Shown one piece after another: positions 23,809 through 35,992 of a stretch of 64,000 nucleotides of DNA. This DNA is from Pempheris klunzingeri (lineage: Eukaryota; Chordata; Actinopteri; Acropomatiformes; Pempheridae). The notes below the pieces were generated by a model, which saw nothing but the letters and a program-made list of their open reading frames with translations, had not been told where the DNA came from and did not search any database. The stretch lies in NCBI RefSeq assembly GCF_042242105.1, contig NC_092016.1, positions 10,926,501 to 10,990,500 on the forward strand. Reading direction: 5' to 3'. The position numbers and the translations under genes were made by a program. The first letter of the stretch is position 1, and every line of letters starts with the position of its first letter.

Positions 23809-26800
23809 ATGAAGGAGAGGAGTGGAGATTTTCTCGCGTGGAAAGTGCTGCTGGGGGGAATGTGTGTGCTGCTGCTCCTGAGCTCAGCGGGTTTTGTGTT
23901 CCTGCTGGTTCAACAGAAGGAGCTGACAGAGGAGCTGGCCAGGTTGGACGCCCAGATGCAGGTGCTGTCACAGAGCTGCGGGCTGAAGGCAGGAGTCCTC
24001 CCCACGGACCCCGGACACACTGGAGAGCTGAAGAAGCTCTACCGCAGCAGAAGAAACCAGAAGGGAGAACCAACAGAAAGCCAAGACGAGAAAGATATGC
24101 TGATGCTAATGACTTACTCCATGGTTCCTGTAAGACACTGAAGAGCTTGAATGTGGGCTCTTTTTATTACAAATATTGCTGTTTACTGTATTTCTATAAA
24201 AATCTAAAGAAATTTATGATTCTTTTTCTGTTCGCTATTATGAGCGAGACCAGGGGAGCAATCAACAAGTCTTTACTGTCATCTTTAGAAGAACCCTTTC
24301 CTCTCTTTTCCCTTTTGGGACAAGAAGCATGTCTGTGTAATGCAAAGAATCCAGGAGTCTGTTGCAGTGATTAAGAAGAAGTTTTCTACTGAATGTTTCT
24401 TACATGGAGCGTGACTGTTTCCTGCTCCTCCCGCAACTGTAATCACACCAGCTGGGAACTGGCATTTCATCAGAGGGTGCTACTGTATTTCTATTGACAG
24501 CATACTTTTCAGTGAAACACAAGTATTCCACCAAAGTAAAGCCTGGTTTAATCTGTGGCCTCATCCATTAATGGTTACCAGTAATAATTCTGCAACTAAT
24601 GATTCTTTTCATTGTCAATCAAGCTTCTGATTATGTATACAGAATATAGTAATACAGTCTCCAGAGCACAAGGAGACACCTTCAGACTGCTTGGTTTATA
24701 TAAATGAAATTAAACCAAAATAGTTGTAATCTTCCCTCAAATCTTGAGGGCAAATGACACAGTTACATTTGACAAGATGTCTCAGGAGAAAAGCAACAGT
24801 GTTTGTATCCAAGTGATTTAAAAACTAAAATGTGTTGCATTAGAAAGCCTCCAGATATATTTACTTATATTTATTTATTTTTTTATAACATTACCTTCAT
24901 CTGCTGCCTCTTTCTGTTTTTCTGTATTTCAGGTCAAAGCCTTCGTAGATCTGTGTAACAGCACCAGAGGAATTTGTTTAACAGGTGAACTTCATAAATA
25001 TTCTCCATGTGGTTTTTATAGTTTCTGGTGCTTCTACTGTATTTAATTTGTTCAGTAATTTGTTTTCAGGACCACCAGGTAAAAACAGACACTTCAGTTA
25101 ACAGCTTAAATGAAGCTGAATTTGTTACTACAGTTACAGTTACTTTTGCCTATTAGGTTTACCTGGTAGAGCTGGTTCACCAGGACCACGGGGAGTGCCT
25201 GGGCCGGAGGGGAGACGAGGAAAAAGAGGTGAGGATAGATTTATCGAGTCTTAAAAGCCTAATTACCACTCCTTGGAGACTAACCCCAGATGAACTGTGC
25301 ACCAGAACAGACATAAAATGGCTGCAGCTTTATGTGTGTGTCCAGTGTTGGCCACCGTGTTGGAACAATGTTTTGCTCATCTGGTCTCTGCACAGGTAAC
25401 ATGACTGAAAATAATTTTTTTTATACCTGGATGAGAATAGCCAGATGGCAGCTGTTTGGCTAACAACACTCAGAGTCCACACAGGGAGGATGATGTGATG
25501 AGTGAATGGGTCAAACACAGGACTTTCACAGAGGGGACTGGGGTCTTAGTCCCATGTCAAACCAATGTCAGTGTTGACTTTTCATTTTTTGTTTTTTACT
25601 ATTTTCATTTTTCAGTTGCAGTTTGGTTAGATTTAAGCACCAAAACTACTTAGCTAGCTTTCACAAAACACCTTGAGACGCGAACAATGGCTTTCTGGCA
25701 GAAAGCCCTAAAAGCAAACACACGCTAGGTGCATGCCTCAACAGCACAGCAAGCATAAAAGGTAAACACAAAATTTGCCCTTTTCATCATACACCTGGCT
25801 GTAAATCGCATCTACCAACAAACAAACTCAGAAACAGTCAGTCACAAGTTTCAAACAGTCCCCCCTGCGGTAAGATGACATGAAAATCCCACTCACTGCC
25901 AACAAGAGACTTTGTGTTTGGCTGCCACGTGAGCACTACACTTATTTATTTGAAAAATGGTTACTAGACCGTTCACACTTGAATCACACTTGTTTGTTAT
26001 TGTTGCTGTTTGAGCTGTAGAGAAACACCGTGGACCTTTTTATCTTTCGCTCATTCACTGGAACATTTCAGTGACTCTTGATGGCATCACAGATCCACTC
26101 AGCTATACTGATTTAACACTAAGAGAAAATAGTTCATGTTTAAAAACATCTACAATCATTTGTTGACAGGTTCACAGTCATCACCTGTTTTTAGTTTGGA
26201 TTTACATTTTCAACTCTGGGGTTTAAACTAATGACGACACCTGTCAATGACTAGGACCCCCTGGTGAAAGAGGAGAACCAGTACCTAAAGGAGACCCTGG
26301 GCCTCCGCGACTGAAAGGCGAGACCTATAATGACATTCTCATTGAGGTTGAGAGATGACAACATGTTTAAAACCTGATATGAATAATGTGATTAACAGAG
26401 AGAGAGATATCACTTCTCACAAAGTCACTCAGGCTGCATCCAGTGTTTACTCAAGATTCAAAAAGCTGTCGCTTAATTTTTCTGAGTTTCTGTCAACCAA
26501 CGGACGAGGATCTAAGAATAGCAAGACGGCTGCTATGTTATGTTCAACACTTTATTCTTTTGTGGGAAGTAATAAACAAACAGAACTACTCCTGTTTATT
26601 ATTATCATTATTATTATTAGTAGTAGTAGTAAACATTAAATTTTTTTTTACATTTTAAGTTTGGCTTAAAAGTCACGGTACAATATTTAACAATATTATA
26701 TCAAGAATTCACGTAGTAGCTCACATTACTCTCCAGTTTTTCTTTTGTTGTTGTTGTAAAGGGCCTGTCATTAATTAGCAGTAATGATTAGTAGGTCAGT

Positions 26801-29800
26801 TTTACATGTCTGACTCGTACTGTCTGTATATATTTAAAGGTAATCCTGGCCCACCTTGTCCACCTTGTCCACCTGGTCCACCTGGTCCACCTGGTCCACC
26901 TGGCCCACCTGGTCCACCTGGTCCATCCTGTCCTGCTTGGTATTGTGAGAAAATGAGAAATAAAACTGAGAGAGAACACTTCCATAAAACCAACATGTTG
27001 ATGGGTGAGAGCATATCTACAGAATCATTACAATAAATCAGCATGTTTCATTTTCAGCATGACATGTTTATGGTACATGATACGCTATTAATTGAACTGT
27101 TACATATATTATGTGGAAAAACAAATATAATCCCAAAATATGGATGACATGACCTCTGTGTCCCCGATCACATACAGCACAAATATTATAATAGTTTATT
27201 ATTTCTGGGCTATTGGTGTTGTCATTGACTTTTCATATGGGCCTAAGAATCTCTCAATATGATAAATAATGGAAGTTTAAAGTAAAAACAATCCCAAAAG
27301 TTAACCTTCCCTCTACTCCTATTCCTCATATTTAGATTCATCTCCTTCTCCGACCAGGGAGCCATTCAGTGAAGCCGACACAGAAAACATCAGCAGCTCG
27401 ACAGTTAACAAGACCAGTAGGACGAAATTCAGAGTTTACATGTTGTGAACATCACTTATATGAGTTAATAATTTAGATTATGGGTTGTTTGTGACTAAGG
27501 GACATGATGTCTGTACCAACTCCTCTATTTAAAATGCTTATTTCTGTAGAAGCACCAACCTCACATCCAGCTGATGATCGCAGAGATGTACTGAATGTCA
27601 CTGACTCTGAAAACCTTCTAGACACAAGCAAGGGATCTGGTAAGCATCCGCTTTTAGTGGAGGGGAGACGTCATTGTGAGACCTTTGAATTATGAGTAAA
27701 GTGAGTGACCATAACTTTATATAATAAATTATATATAATGTTTAATTTCATTCTACAGCCCCATTTTCTGTGGACCAAAGTAGTGACGCCTTCAATAATA
27801 GTGAAATATTTCTTAATGGACACATGGAAAGTGGTAAGAAAACTTCTATTGTGCAACAACATCCAGGCTCTGGCTAAAGTATATTCAAAACAGATGTTAG
27901 ACTACAGTTACTGACATTATGTCTCCTAAAAAATCTTTCATAAAGGAGAAAATGTGAATTAATCTTTTTAATTATGTGTTCAGACTCTTCATATTCACCC
28001 CAGAACAACAACAACAAGCTAAATCTGACTGGCAGCGAGAGACGGGAAAACACTGGTGAGTAAACTTTGTGAATTAAAGTTCAGAAAAGAGGCACACACA
28101 GTAAGAAATTATGTCAGTTAATGACATTTATGAATTCATGATATGCTGTTTGTGAATTAAAACTTTTGATAATATTGAATATCTTTACTATGTGTTATCT
28201 TTTTGTCCACAGAATCACCAACATCACATCCAGCCAGTGACAGCAGAGATGTACTTAATGTCTTTGAACCTAAAAGACATATAAACACAAGCGGTAAGCA
28301 TTCGTTTTGAGTGGCAGGAAGACTTTGTTGTCAGACCTAATGTTGATTACATAAAAACATGTCTTATTCTCATCACTTCATTTTTTTTCTTTTCTTTTTC
28401 AGTGTCTGTATCAGTTCATCCAGAGTTCAGCTACGTCACACTGAACGATGCAAACACAGAGAATGTTACAGAGGCACCGATTAAATCGTTAACAGGTAAT
28501 AATAGTATTTTTAATTAATTAAAGTAAAAGTCTCTTGTTTCTTAATTAAAGATGGCATTAGTGTTTGTAAACGTTACATAATGTCTCATTTTATGCTACA
28601 GCCCTACTTCCTACAGACCTGATTCAAAACAGGGACACCTTCAATGGCAGCGTAGACATTAATGATACACCTGTAACAACTGGTAAGAAACTGTTATGTT
28701 TTATAAACTGTATTTGGTATCAGTACAGGCACAAATATGATATATAGATATACAGTTAACAACCATTTTGAGTGTCAGGAAGACATAACTGATAGATTTC
28801 TTTACTGATTTTGATTTATTCGACTGTTGTTTCAGAGCAATCTCAAACCATAAGGAGTTCTACAGAGTTAGTATCACCTCGTCCAGTTTACAGACATGAC
28901 ACGTGGACTGAAACCAGCACAGAGGATGTTACCGAGGCATCAATTAACTCAGTCACAGGTTGTAGATCCTGGTGACTCATTTAATGAATTGTTTGTACAC
29001 ACAGATTTGATCTTAACCTTGAACTGTGGTCACCTTATTAAATCTCTCCTGTCTTTCCAGTGTTACCAACACCACATCCAGCCCATGAAGCCAGAGATGT
29101 TTTTCATTTCACTGACTCTGAGGAACTTCCAGACACAGATAAGGAACCTGGTAAAGCAACCGTTTGAGTGGCTAAAGACTTATGTAAAATCTTATGTGAA
29201 ACGTCTAGAGGGGAAATACATTCATGTATGTTTTTTATGTAAAATCTTCTTTTTTTTTTTTAAACTGCAACTTTAGTTGTCAAATACATGTGGAGTAAGA
29301 AGTACAGTGTGTTCCTCTTGAATGCAGTCAAGTAGAGGTATAAAGTAACATAAAATGGGTGTAACAAGTACCTCAAAAGAGCACTTCAGTTCAGTACTTG
29401 GGTAAATGTACTTACTTGCTTTCCACCACTGGAATCAATACATTTTAGTATTAGTACTCTAGAACTCTGGATGACTCTGATTTTGATTTATTCGACTGTT
29501 GTTTCAGAGCAATCTCAAACCATAAGGAGTTCTACAGAGTTAGTATCATCTCGTCCAGACTACAGACATGACACGTGGACTGAAACCAGCACAGAGGATG
29601 TTACCGAGGCATCAATTAACTCAGTCACAGGTTGTAGATCCTGGTGACTCATTTAATGAATTGTTTGTACACACAGATTTGATCTTAACCTTGAACTGTG
29701 GTCACCTCATTAAATCTCTCCTGTCTTTCCAGTGTTACCAACACCACATCCAGCCCATGAAGCCAGAGATGTTTTTCATTTCACTGACTCTGAGGAACTT

Positions 29801-32800
29801 CCAGACACAGATAAGGAACCTGGTAAAGCAACCGTTTGAGTGGCTAAAGACTTATGTAAAATCTTATGTGAAACGTCTAGAGGGGAAATACATTCATGTA
29901 TGTTTTTTTATGTAAAATCTTTTTTTTTTTTTTTAAACTGCAACTTTAGTTGTCAAATACATGTGGAGTAAGAAGTACAGTGTGTTCCTCTTGAATGCAG
30001 TCAAGTAGAGGTATAAAGTAACATAAAATGGGTGTAACAAGTACCTCAAAAGAGCACTTCAGTTCAGTACTTGGGTAAATGTACTTACTTGCTTTCCACC
30101 ACTGGAATCAATACATTTTAGTATTAGTACTCTAGAACTCTGGATGACTCTGATTTTGATTTATTCGACTGTTGTTTCAGAGCAATCTCAAACCATAAGG
30201 AGTTCTACAGAGTTAGTATCACCTCGTCCAGTTTACAGACATGACACGTGGACTGAAACCAGCACAGAGGATGTTACCGAGGCATCAATTAACTCAGTCA
30301 CAGGTTGTAGATCCTGGTGACTCATTTAATGAATTGTTTGTACACACAGATTTGATCTTAACCTCGAACTGTGGTCACCTCATTAAATCTCTCCTTTCTT
30401 TCCAGTGTTACCAACACCACATCCAGCCCATGAAGCCAGAGATGTTTTTCATTTCACTGACTCTGAGGAACTTCCAGACACAGATAAGGAACCTGGTAAA
30501 GCAACCGTTTGAGTGGCTAAAGACTTATGTAAAATCTTATGTGAAACGTCTAGAGGGGAAATACATTCATGTATGTTTTTTTATGTAAAATCTTTTTTTT
30601 TTTTTTTAAACTGCAACTTTAGTTGTCAAATACATGTGGAGTAAGAAGTACAGTGTGTTCCTCTTGAATGCAGTCAAGTAGAGGTATAAAGTAACATAAA
30701 ATGGGTGTAACAAGTACCTCAAAAGAGCACTTCAGTTCAGTACTTGGGTAAATGTACTTACTTGCTTTCCACCACTGGAATCAATACATTTTAGTATTAG
30801 TACTCTAGCACTCTGGATGACTCTGATTTTGATTTATTCGACTGTTGTTTCAGAACAATCTCAAACCATAAGGAGTTCTACAGAGTTAGTATCACCTCGT
30901 CCAGTTTACAGACATGACACGTGGACTGAAACCAGCGCACAGGATGTTACCGAGGCATCAATTAACTCAGTCACAGGTTGTAGATCCTGGTGACTCATTT
31001 AATGAATTGTTTGTACACACAGATTTGATCTTAACCTCGAACTGTGGTCACCTTATTAAATCTCTCCTGTCTTTCCAGTGTTACCAACACCACATCCAGC
31101 CCATGAAGCCAGAGATGTTTTTCATTTCACTGACTCTGAGGAACTTCCAGACACAGATAAGGAACCTGGTAAAGCAACCGTTTGAGTGGCTAAAGACTTA
31201 TGTAAAATCTTATGTGAAACGTCTAGAGGGGAAATACATTCATGTATGTTTTTTTATGTAAAATCTTTTTTTTTTTTTTAAACTGCAACTTTAGTTGTCA
31301 AATACATGTGGAGTAAGAAGTACAGTGTGTTCCTCTTGAATGCAGTCAAGTAGAGGTATAAAGTAACATAAAATGGGTGTAACAAGTACCTCAAAAGAGC
31401 ACTTCAGTTCAGTACTTGGGTAAATGTACTTACTTGCTTTCCACCACTGGAATCAATACATTTTAGTATTAGTACTCTAGCACTCTGGATGACTCTGATT
31501 TTGATTTATTCGACTGTTGTTTCAGAACAATCTCAAACCATAAGGAGTTCTACAGAGTTAGTATCACCTCGTCCAGTTTACAGACATGACACGTGGACTG
31601 AAACCAGCACAGAGGATGTTACCGAGGCATCAATTAACTCAGTCACAGGTTGTAGATCCTGGTGACTCATTTAATGAATTGTTTGTACACACAGATTTGA
31701 TCTTAACCTCGAACTGTGGTCACCTTATTAAATCTCTGTCTTTCCAGTGTTACCAACACCACATCCAGCCCATGAAGCCAGAGATGTTTTTCATTTCACT
31801 GACTCTGAGGAACTTCCAGACACAGATAAGGAACCTGGTAAAGCAACCGTTTGAGTGGCTAAAGACTTATGTAAAATCTTATGTGAAACGTCTAGAGGGG
31901 AAATACATTCATGTATGTTTTTTTATGTAAAATCTTTTTTTTTTTTTTAAACTGCAACTTTAGTTGTCAAATACATGTGGAGTAAGAAGTACGGTGTGTT
32001 CCTCTTGAATGCAGTCAAGTAGAGGTATAAAGTAACATAAAATGGGTGTAACAAGTACCTCAAAAGAGCACTTCAGTTCAGTACTTGGGTAAATGTACTT
32101 ACTTGCTTTCCACCACTGGAATCAATACATTTTAGTATTAGTACTCTAGCACTCTGGATGACTCTGATTTTGATTTATTCGACTGTTGTTTCAGAGCAAT
32201 CTCAAACCATAAGGAGTTCTACAGAGTTAGTATCACCTCGTCCAGTTTACAGACATGACACATGGACTGAAACCAGCACAGAGGATGTTACCGAGGCATC
32301 AATTAACTCAGTCACAGGTTGTAGATCCTGGTGACTCATTTAATGAATTGTTTGTACACACAGATTTGATCTTAACCTCGAACTGTGGTCACCTTATTAA
32401 ATCTCTCCTGTCTTTCCAGTGTTACCAACACCACATCCAGCCCATGAAGCCAGAGATGTTTTTCATTTCACTGACTCTGAGGAACTTCCAGACACAGATA
32501 AGGAACCTGGTAAAGCAACCGTTTGAGTGGCTAAAGACTTATGTAAAATCTTATGTGAAACGTCTAGAGGGGAAATACATTCATGTATGTTTTTTTATGT
32601 AAAATCTTTTTTTTTTTTTTAAACTGCAACTTTAGTTGTCAAATACATGTGGAGTAAGAAGTACAGTGTGTTCCTCTTGAATGCAGTCAAGTAGAGGTAT
32701 AAAGTAACATAAAATGGGTGTAACAAGTACCTCAAAAGAGCACTTCAGTTCAGTACTTGGGTAAATGTACTTACTTGCTTTCCACCACTGGAATCAATAC

Positions 32801-34976
32801 ATTTTAGTATTAGTACTCTAGCACTCTGGATGACTCTGATTTTGATTTATTCGACTGTTGTTTCAGAACAATCTCAAACCATAAGGAGTTCTACAGAGTT
32901 AGTATCACCTCGTCCAGTTTACAGACATGACACGTGGACTGAAACCAGCACAGAGGATGTTACCGAGGCATCAATTAACTCAGTCACAGGTTGTAGATCC
33001 TGGTGACTCATTTAATGAATTGTTTGTACACACAGATTTGATCTTAACCTCGAACTGTGGTCACCTCATTAAATCTCTGTCTTTCCAGTGTTACCAACAC
33101 CACATCCAGCCCATGAAGCCAGAGATGTTTTTCATTTCACTGACTCTGAGGAACTTCCAGACACAGATAAGGAACCTGGTAAAGCAACCGTTTGAGTGGC
33201 TAAAGACTTATGTAAAATTTTATGTGAAAAGTCTAGAGGGGAAATACATTCATGTATGTTTTTTTATGTAAAATCTTTTTTTTTTTTTTTAAACTGCGAC
33301 TTTAGTTGTCAAATACATGTGGAGTAAGAAGTACAGTGTGTTCCTCTTGAACGCAGTCAAGTAGAGGTATAAAGTAACATAAAATGGAAGTTCAGATTAG
33401 AGGCAATCAAGTAATTAATTATTTGAGTTAATGACTTTCTGTTTGCTGTTTGTGAATCCAAACTAGTTTTGATTATATTGAATATCTGTTCTATACATCA
33501 TCTTTATCTCCACAGAATCACCAACATCACATCTAGCTGACGATAGCTGGAATGAAATGAATTTCTCTGACACCAAAAAACTTGTAAACACAAATGTGGA
33601 ATCTGGTAAGCGTCCGTTTTGAGTGGTGGGAAGAAGCTGTTGCCCAACCTAATTTTGATTATGTAAAAGCATGTTTATCACAGAATTTTTTTCTTTTCTT
33701 TTCCAGAGTCTGTATCAGTTCATCTAGAGTTCAGCTACGACACACCAAATGATACCAACACAAAGGATGTTACAGAAGCACCACTTGAGTTACTAACAGG
33801 TATTAACTGTGTTTTTAATTATAAGTAAAAAAAATCTCTTGTTTACTAACTAAAGGTGCCATTAGTATTTTTCTAAATGTTACATAATATCTCGTTTCAT
33901 TTTACAGCCCTGCTTCCTCCAGGCCTAAGCAATGGGTATATTAATGATACAACCATGAAACGTGGTTAAACGTGTCATATTTTTATAAACTGTATCAGTA
34001 TTCACATGTACTGTATGCCTGGCTACGTGAAGGCACAAATATAAAATCTAGTTTGAGTGGAAGAAAGACTTAATTGACAGACCTCTTTACTGATTTTGAT
34101 TTATTCCACAGATGTTTCAGGACAACCTCATACCGCACCATTAACCTGTTCAGTATGATCTGGTAAACGGCCATGTGAAGACAAACCTAACCACTTTTTT
34201 CATTCTCTAGAGTCAGATCATAAAGATGACAGCCATGGCACATCCATGGATACCAGAAGAGAAAGTGCCACAGAGGCACCAACTAAATTATTAACAGGTA
34301 GGAAACACTCTGTTTTTAATTATATGTAAAAGTGGCCTAAAATGCTTGTTTTTGTGTTTTGTGTGATTTATGATGCTGCAGTATAACACCATTAGTGTAA
34401 AAGAGTGTTTGAGTTTGAGTCTCAGGATAGAGGATGCTGTACACTGTACAGATTGTAAATCACCCTGAGGCAGTTTGTGACTTTTGTTTGTGGCCTTTAT
34501 AAATAGTATGACTTGATATATTCATCTATTCAATATATATCTAATCCTTGGCTCACTTTCTGTAGACCTGGCTCAAGAGATGGACGCCTCCAATAATAGT
34601 GGAAACATTTTCAATACACCCATGAAAAGTGGTAAGGAAGTGGTCTTACATAAAATATTTGTTTTTAGTTCTGGCTTATTTATTGATTTAAAGATTTATT
34701 TTACTCCAAGGTTCAGTGAAATACATTTAATTTAAAATAATCACTGATAGCATGTTATATAGGCTACAAACAGATAAAACATCCACAATAATTTTGAAAT
34801 ACGCATTCGATAAACCTTTTTCTTCTTCTTTCTTGTTCTTTAGCCTCTTCATACCCACTCCAGACCAACAACAAGATCAATGTGACTGCCAGTGAGAGAT
34901 GGACAAAAAGTGGTTAGATCATTTTAGTAAATTACACTTAAAATAATGAAATTGTGTAGTCTATCTATCTACTGCA

Positions 34977-35007
<31 letters not shown>

Positions 35008-35992
35008 CAAATACTGAACAACACTTTTTCATTCATTTAGAATGTGAGATCAAAACTGTTAGGTGCTCGGAGAAAGCCACCAAAATGCAAAGCACTTTTG
35101 GGTCGTGGATGTCAGATGCGTCCCAGCTGGATGGAGGCCGATACTGGCTGGCTGAGCATTTTTCAGGTGATTTACCTTTCAGCCTACCATTCATCACAGA
35201 TAATTACGAGTCATTGTTGATTTAACACAGAAACATTTCCCCAGGTCGAAGTTTGATGGAGCACAGGGACATTTCGCCATTTCAGAACACAAGCGACAAA
35301 ATTATAGACGTCGGGAAGTTTTACCAGGGCTGCGGTCATGTTGTTTACAAGCAGTCATTTTACTTTCACAATGGAGGAACAAACAAACTTAGAAAGTAAG
35401 TGTTTGTGTCAAATATGTATGTATTTCTTTTTTCCTTATTAACTTACCCATACTGTCATTTTTGATGCCAGTCATGTGATGCCAGTGACTTTTGTATTTC
35501 TTAACTTACCCACTATCAATATTTTACAGATTTAACTTGAACACCGGGAAAAGAAACACTCTGATCATGGAAAACAGCAGATATCACAACCTGACGTATC
35601 TTTTCCGCAACTCAAAGACGTATTTCAAGTTTGCTGTGGATGAAAATGGACTGTGGGTCATTTTTGCATCAGACACAGATGATAAATTGATGGTTGCGAA
35701 GCTTAATCCTGACAGATTCACGGTGGAGTCAATCATTAACACTCACTACCCTACAACCAAAGCAGGAAATGCTTTCATTGTGTGTGGGATGATATATTTT
35801 ACAGATGACAAGGACAGAAGAGTCACATATGCCTTTGATTTAATGAAAGAGAGGCCTCGGGATGCAAATTTTGATTTAAGGCCAGCGAATGGCATCTTGG
35901 CTATGCTGTCTTATTATCCCAACAAAAAGCTTTTGTACATGTGGGACAACAGCAGTGTGAAAATCTGCAAAGTTAAACTCAAACTGGCCTAA
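23809..35992 (+). CDS. gldn: Gliomedin with a greatly expanded modular stalk
   Basis: Type II membrane protein: TM about residues 11-35, furin-like RSRR at 79-82, then MLMLMTYSMVP and DLCNSTRGICLTGPPG as in human gliomedin. Anchor and collagen exons: 23809-24129, 24933-24984, 25070-25078 (9 nt), 25157-25228, 26255-about 26346, 26840-27004. Stalk exons: 27336-27416, 27550-27639, 27759-27833, 27984-28055, 28213-28293, 28403-28495, 28602-28682, the 14-exon tandem array, 33516-33605, 33707-33799, 33908-33964, 34211-34297, 34566-34631, 34844-34912. Olfactomedin domain: 35041-35166, 35245-35395, 35530-35992, with GCGHVVYKQSFYFHNGG and ANFDLRPANGILAMLSYYP. The family sits on Schwann-cell microvilli and clusters neurofascin and NrCAM at nodes of Ranvier. 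The junction between 26346 and 26840 has mismatched phase and is unresolved. An upstream in-frame ATG exists at 23725. Confidence 0.93.
24588..24640. mobile_element. Fragment of the ATTAATCG-type dispersed fish element
   Basis: CTGCAACTAATGATTCTTTT followed by CATTGTCAATCAAGC, in gldn intron 1, matches one end of the same family as 60105-60375. Identification is from memory of the family. Confidence 0.45.
26851..26925 (+). repeat. (CCACCTGGT)n minisatellite coding Gly-Pro-Pro
   Basis: About eight 9-base units inside the gldn collagen exon code Gly-Pro-Pro triplets. The first two units carry TGT in place of GGT, so Cys replaces Gly; a further Cys at the 3' end lies in PSCPAWYC. Confidence 0.85.
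28806..33387 (+). repeat. Seven-copy ~672 bp tandem array carrying duplicated gldn exon pairs
   Basis: Exon A (123 nt, 41 codons) starts at 28836, 29508, 30181, 30854, 31526, 32195 and 32867; spacings are 672, 673, 673, 672, 669 and 672. Exon B (90 nt) lies at 29061-29150, 29733-29822, 30406-30495, 31079-31168, 31748-31837, 32420-32509 and 33089-33178. All fourteen exons are phase 1-1 with intact AG and GT sites and open frames. A encodes a Ser/Thr-rich peptide beginning QSQTIRSSTELVSPRP; B begins LPTPHPAHEARDVFHF. Units differ at only a few bases and small indels (for example a CTC loss in two A-B introns, SSRPD in unit 2, TSAQD in unit 4). The last unit stops early, inside the intronic element. 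The array adds 497 residues. Confidence 0.97.
29272..29431. mobile_element. Fragment of a dispersed fish DNA element, amplified with the gldn array
   Basis: The intron after each B exon contains ATGTGGAGTAAGAAGTACAG, TAAAGTAACATAAAATGG and a terminal TTCCACCACTGG. This resembles a very common fish non-autonomous element whose end reads CAGTGGTGGAA (hAT-like, from memory). Copies recur at each ~672 bp step in units 1-6; the seventh (about 33294-33387) is cut off at AAAATGG. Confidence 0.5.
34121..34162 (+). pseudogene. Decayed A-type stalk exon in gldn
   Basis: GACAACCTCATACC after TTGATTTATTCCACAGATGT aligns with the start of array exon A and its upstream intron (TTGATTTATTCGACTG). The exon is shortened and reads into TGA in the stalk phase, so it is probably skipped: the flanking exons 33908-33964 and 34211-34297 join in phase without it. 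Confidence 0.6.
34957..35008. repeat. (CTAT)n/(TCTG)n microsatellite in gldn
   Basis: A short CTAT run followed by about seven TCTG units, just before the first olfactomedin exon at 35041. Confidence 0.85.

Follow-up and report, generated by a model that had tools for sequence, protein, structure and literature searches.

Our analysis places a tandem array of coding exon pairs inside a gliomedin gene, at positions 28806..33387 (+ strand) of the window, the whole 64,000-nucleotide stretch of Pempheris klunzingeri DNA that was analysed. The reading that we favour, with moderate confidence, is that of a faster-diverging gliomedin whose linker, between the collagen-like and olfactomedin (OLF) regions, has grown by exon duplication and now includes a recently amplified spacer module.

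A tandem exon-pair array

Self-BLAST, unit alignment and a genome search defined seven units, each with one A and one B exon; six are complete (669-673 bp) and the last is truncated. In order, the units measure 672, 673, 673, 672, 669 and 672 bp, followed by the truncated unit of 551 bp, and shifted copies are 97.8-99.0% identical in self-BLAST of the window. The first A exon (28836..28958, + strand, 123 nt) ends at the donor CAG|gttgta, and copies 2-7, also of 123 nt each, start at 29508, 30181, 30854, 31526, 32195 and 32867. The first B exon (29061..29150, + strand, 90 nt) ends at the donor CTG|gtaaag; copies 2-7, of 90 nt each, start at 29733, 30406, 31079, 31748, 32420 and 33089. AG/GT borders and an open phase 1-1 frame were found in 14/14 array exons (7 A and 7 B), which total 497 codons, or 71 residues per unit. 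These are near-identical tandem units holding whole symmetric exons, a feature of coding exon-pair repeats of the LPA kringle IV-2 kind. An initial annotation had described such an array with fourteen exons, and the unit alignment and self-BLAST showed it to be real, exactly placed and of the geometry proposed. The array is absent from the Tandem Repeats Finder list, in which the longest period is 500. Pfam matches of the repeat unit were judged to be due to chance: tRNA-synt_2d reached 19.4 bits (cut-off 19.8, E 0.00079), and Inhibitor_I66 and DUF5852 stayed far below their cut-offs.

Part of the B-to-A intron (29269..29445, + strand, about query 464-640 of unit 1) matches a dispersed repeat; this stretch is present in all six full units, and the last unit stops inside it. 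The search of the 645.9-Mb genome with the unit scored 40 of 159 candidates, so that all its counts are lower bounds. It gave at least 46 matches: the array accounts for seven and an older stalk exon of the window for one, and at least 38 lie elsewhere, cover the intron stretch only and represent the dispersed element. No eighth unit was seen among the 40 of 159 candidates scored in that genome.

The host gene and its neighbours

The gene model, assembled exon by exon, begins with the ATG at 23809 and ends with the stop codon at 35992. Its first coding exon (23809..24129, + strand) encodes a putative N-terminal hydrophobic segment and a furin-like RSRR motif, both recognized by eye in the model. 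Collagen-like exons were modelled at 25070-25078, 25157-25228 and 26840-27004 (25070..27004, + strand); a further one at 26255-26346 is uncertain and was excluded. The OLF domain, located by PDB match and Pfam, occupies three exons at 35041-35166, 35245-35395 and 35530-35992 (35041..35992, + strand). When the last OLF exon was compared with PDB, three gliomedin sequences scored 139-144 bits and the next family 72 bits, and both Pfam OLF (205.7 bits, cut-off 23.9) and Pfam Collagen (34.9 bits, cut-off 27.2) exceeded their cut-offs. The gene is therefore gliomedin, as had been proposed, and the exon model with the two Pfam domains confirmed the placement of the array between collagen and OLF. 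The account of an array inside gliomedin stood in this respect, while it had omitted the diverged exons of the same families that flank the array and a second gliomedin in the genome, both described below.

In the excluded exon 26255-26346 the expected donor reads TT where the second gliomedin has GT, and use of the nearest GT, one base upstream, would break the frame. Exon borders in the second gene suggest that 26255-26346 is symmetric, so that skipping it would keep the frame. At 26845-26930, a nine-base tandem repeat (9.4 copies) codes for Gly-Pro-Pro and begins with two Cys-Pro-Pro triplets.

Aromatase, with Pfam p450 above cut-off, adjoins the window gliomedin on the minus strand. Beyond it lies an Adaptin_N match below cut-off (27 vs 37 bits, E 2.2e-6), and ap4e1 is a likely neighbour. 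The other neighbours are GNB5-like and CLPX-like by peptide reading, the former with a Pfam WD40 match; Pfam on six neighbourhood open frames gave one weak match (AAA_2, in the CLPX-like frame).

A second, compact gliomedin

Searching the genome with the OLF domain returned 27 matches (30/30 candidates scored). The best match outside the window, at 56% identity, belongs to a second, compact gliomedin on contig C1 (C1:8720070-8723722, - strand); the other 25 were at 35% or less. This copy has the gliomedin exon series and domains, with a 43-residue linker, and a furin-like RNKR was read by eye in its exon 1. A second cyp19a1 adjoins it, at 67-78% to the window's aromatase. The 30 kb around it yielded no stalk exons (best tblastn E 0.03). 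Its OLF domain scores 196-201 bits against PDB, compared with 139-144 bits for that of the window, and is 61% identical to chain 5yby, which we take to be mammalian gliomedin, compared with 47%. On these comparisons the window gene appears to be the faster-diverging of two gliomedins in the genome, each beside a cyp19a1.

A published synteny account places gldn beside cyp19a1a and ap4e1 beside cyp19a1b, a pair derived from the teleost genome duplication, and its section 2.2 makes no mention of gldn beside cyp19a1b (PMC9141715). Given its ap4e1-like neighbour, the window gliomedin looks like the one on the cyp19a1b side. The existence of a second gliomedin that is more mammal-like and has a short linker makes a nodal role for the window gene less secure. 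While the gene's identity held, the accompanying statement that it organises nodes of Ranvier was weakened by the 61% vs 47% OLF identities and the 43-residue linker, and the mammal-like copy seems the likelier keeper of nodal function.

An older stalk around the array

The array is flanked on both sides by 13 modelled, diverged exons of families A, B, C and D, which we call the older stalk. Upstream (27336..28682, + strand) these are A 27336-27416, B 27550-27639, C 27759-27833, D 27984-28055, B 28213-28293, A 28403-28495 and C 28602-28682; downstream (33516..34912, + strand) they are B 33516-33605, A 33707-33799, C 33908-33964, A 34211-34297, C 34566-34631 and D 34844-34912. Assignment to families is secure for B and most A exons, less so for some C exons and for A 27336, which shares 12-30% residue identity with the other A exons. 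A larger duplicated block at 28077..28620 (+ strand) is 76% identical to 33388-33926, and the array lies between its two copies. The stalk exons were found nowhere else in the genome (21/21 candidates scored; four matches, all within the window).

The presence of diverged family members to either side of the array indicates that duplication of small symmetric exons has a long history at this locus, and on the evidence of these flanks the array is a recent burst within an already repeated stalk. The linker of the window model amounts to 371 residues without the array, 581 with the B exons only and 868 with A and B exons. A decayed A-like exon was also noticed; it starts at 34121, has an in-frame stop at 34156 and is preceded by a 5' intron that is 82-87% like the array's. 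Some stalk exons have weak donors by the two measures described below, among them the exons 33908-33964 and 34844-34912, whose gtt- donors may mean that they are being lost.

Splice donors and constraint

Donors were scored with a donor matrix and ranked by U1 pairing among the GT sites of the window. The two measures conflict on the A donor, which stands at the 1.1 percentile by the matrix yet in the top 2.8% of window GT sites by U1 pairing, and we regard this donor as marginal. The B donor stands at the 19.7 percentile by the matrix and only in the top 8.6% of window GT sites by U1 pairing. The donor threshold caused the A exons to drop out of the automatic exon chain, and they were then placed by hand in the gene model. 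Another candidate, 13 nt further downstream than the A donor, was rejected, being better by the matrix (2.4) and worse by U1 pairing (-5.1 vs -7.2 kcal/mol); read by hand, its use would put the exon out of frame. In simulations, neutral copies of the array remained free of stops in 52% of cases at 1% divergence and in 73% at 0.5%, and as the actual copies are about 1% apart, their open frames prove little. The observation that splice sites and frame are intact was upheld for 14/14 exons, while the conclusion drawn from it, that the array looks functional, was not supported, given these 52-73% and the marginal A donor. In the reading that we favour the array exons would be included in mRNA, those of the A type less surely.

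The seven copies of the B exon are identical (0/90 variable sites). The A exons vary at 7/123 sites, where five of the seven changes alter residues, giving four residue changes in all, and the introns of the units carry 10 substitutions in 460 sites, indels not counted. The corresponding p values are 0.06 for A vs introns, 0.38 for B vs introns and 0.02 for A vs B. The A exons are at least as variable as the introns and so give no sign of constraint.

The older duplicated block gave a similar picture, as 174/231 exon sites are identical vs 266/351 in three introns (p 0.92); when the fourth intron, after C (97/153), is included, the introns reach 363/504 and the exons are slightly better kept (p 0.37). 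By this comparison of exon and intron identity, residue-level constraint was undetected in the stalk. Both exon indels of the block (9 and 24 nt) keep the frame, and 5/7 intron indels are not multiples of three. There is no stop in its 165 codons, but since this has a neutral probability of 0.12, frame preservation in the block is weak evidence. For the 13 old exons, which were picked for openness, the neutral probability of having no stop is 0.04 to 0.002 at 10-20% change.

Codon-position differences between the OLF exon and that of the compact copy are 52/37/100, and the OLF exon is, by this pattern, constrained. Four stalk pairs, hand-picked from 23, gave 25/24/32 (p 0.047 vs OLF), and dN/dS among stalk exon copies ranged from 0.27 to 1.99 in the 23 pairs, too noisy for a firm claim. 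The pattern would fit a spacer in which the frame is kept and residues are free, or a stalk under little constraint.

The second of these possibilities leads to the strongest alternative to our reading, namely that the unit was amplified as a neutral passenger in a tolerant stalk and that its exons are mostly skipped or without effect. All exons are symmetric, so skipping would cost nothing, and constraint on the window gene could be relaxed because the compact copy does the ancestral work. The variability of the A exons, the divergence of the stalk exons at about the rate of introns, the marginal A donor by the matrix, the collagen exon whose expected donor has no GT and the faster divergence of the OLF domain (47% vs 61% to the mammalian chain) all point this way. 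Against it, the B exons are invariant in seven copies (though not significantly so relative to introns), the OLF exons are open, the last one with a third-position excess relative to the compact copy, and all 13 exons modelled in the older stalk have open frames, although they were picked for this. We consider a neutral passenger a genuine possibility, at less than an even chance.

Composition and possible role of the linker

The array peptide contains 26.8% Ser+Thr, 9.7% Pro and 21.1% Asp+Glu and no Cys; Ser+Thr in the older stalk is 25.3%, and the stalk too is without cysteine. With such Ser+Thr and Pro contents, the label "mucin-like", previously applied to this segment, fits only loosely. 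N-glycosylation sequons number 15 in 360 old-stalk residues (27336-34912) and 0 in 497 array residues, a contrast that carries borderline weight, as the array consists of copies of a single 71-residue unit. In a charge-hydropathy plot the unit and the older stalk fall on the disordered side and OLF on the folded side, which suggests that the linker is probably disordered.

Mammalian gliomedin is described as cleaved by furin and BMP-1, forming trimers via its collagen parts and entering the matrix, and its OLF domain as binding neurofascin-186 and NrCAM (PMC3810605, PMC4206993, PMC4488277). A peptide scan of the model found no RXXR-kind furin motif in the stalk or array; release at the RSRR of exon 1 would therefore yield a product that retains the collagen region, the stalk and OLF.

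In the reading that we favour, of a linker extended by duplication, successive duplications of small symmetric exons would have lengthened the stretch between collagen and OLF. In a recent step, one A-B pair together with its introns and the piece of dispersed repeat that they contain would have multiplied to seven units, for which unequal crossing-over is the simplest mechanism. Each unit that is spliced in would leave the frame intact and add 71 residues (A+B) or 30 (B only). The result would be a long spacer, rich in Ser/Thr and acidic residues and probably disordered, and its simplest role would be to set the reach of the OLF heads from the collagen-like stem. Symmetric phase 1-1 exons would in this way let a gene grow by repeated local duplication. 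A bolder version, which strikes us as rather improbable, is that, once gliomedin had been duplicated in fishes, one copy left the compact mammalian layout behind and turned into a tethered adhesion protein that evolves in length, the array being a live, polymorphic setting of the distance from stem to OLF.

Near-identical tandem units are prone to unequal crossing-over, and symmetric exons mean that any number of units would be tolerated; polymorphism in the number of array units, which were counted here in one assembly, is plausible. The same two properties would permit the alternative that the length polymorphism is itself under selection, with unit number varying and the length of a glycosylated stalk tuning reach or matrix retention in nerve. 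This we find unlikely, as the array is only moderately Ser/Thr-rich, has 0 sequons vs 15 in the older stalk, and the genome holds a more mammal-like gliomedin elsewhere. Finally, assemblies typically fail at near-identical repeats, but stacking of haplotypes or reads into false tandem units is very improbable here: no two units are identical (units 2 and 4 carry residue changes found in no other copy, units 5 and 7 share a 3-bp deletion, and poly-T runs vary in length), so that every unit is distinguishable, which favours real copies, and the window contains zero N and lies on a 29.8-Mb contig.

If the units are translated and vary in number, they would provide a natural length series of one linker, for which the genome's own short-linker paralogue would serve as a control. 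The question whether linker length matters in gliomedin-type adhesion could then be asked directly.

Comparison with known systems

Like the window gene, mammalian GLDN has a collagen-like region, an OLF domain and an aromatase neighbour, the latter from an account of vertebrate synteny (PMC9141715); its N-terminal hydrophobic segment may have a counterpart in the one read by eye in the window model. The mouse gliomedin OLF construct is given as residues 279-549 (PMC4488277), which leaves 278 residues for everything before OLF, whereas the linker of the window model alone has 371-868. The compact gliomedin of the same genome resembles the window gene in exon series, domains, cyp19a1 neighbour and the furin-like motif in exon 1, and differs from it in its 43-residue linker, in lacking stalk exons within 30 kb and in its OLF identity to the mammalian chain (61% vs 47%). 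An array in gliomedin was described in none of the listed open-access literature matches, judged by titles and the beginnings of abstracts.

Outside this family, the closest likeness is to LPA kringle IV-2, which also consists of tandem near-identical units, with two exons per kringle (PMC11201333); these units are reported to be 5.6 kb long and to number 1-40 per allele. They encode a folded kringle, whereas the 0.67-kb units described here, from one assembly, would encode a probably disordered spacer. Intragenic tandem amplification of coding units is described for NEB and DMBT1 too, which are different proteins, studied in people (PMC11201333). Coding exon-pair repeats are thus known, LPA kringle IV-2 being the best example, and the present array would extend them to a new gene, with smaller units and a predicted product that is probably disordered.
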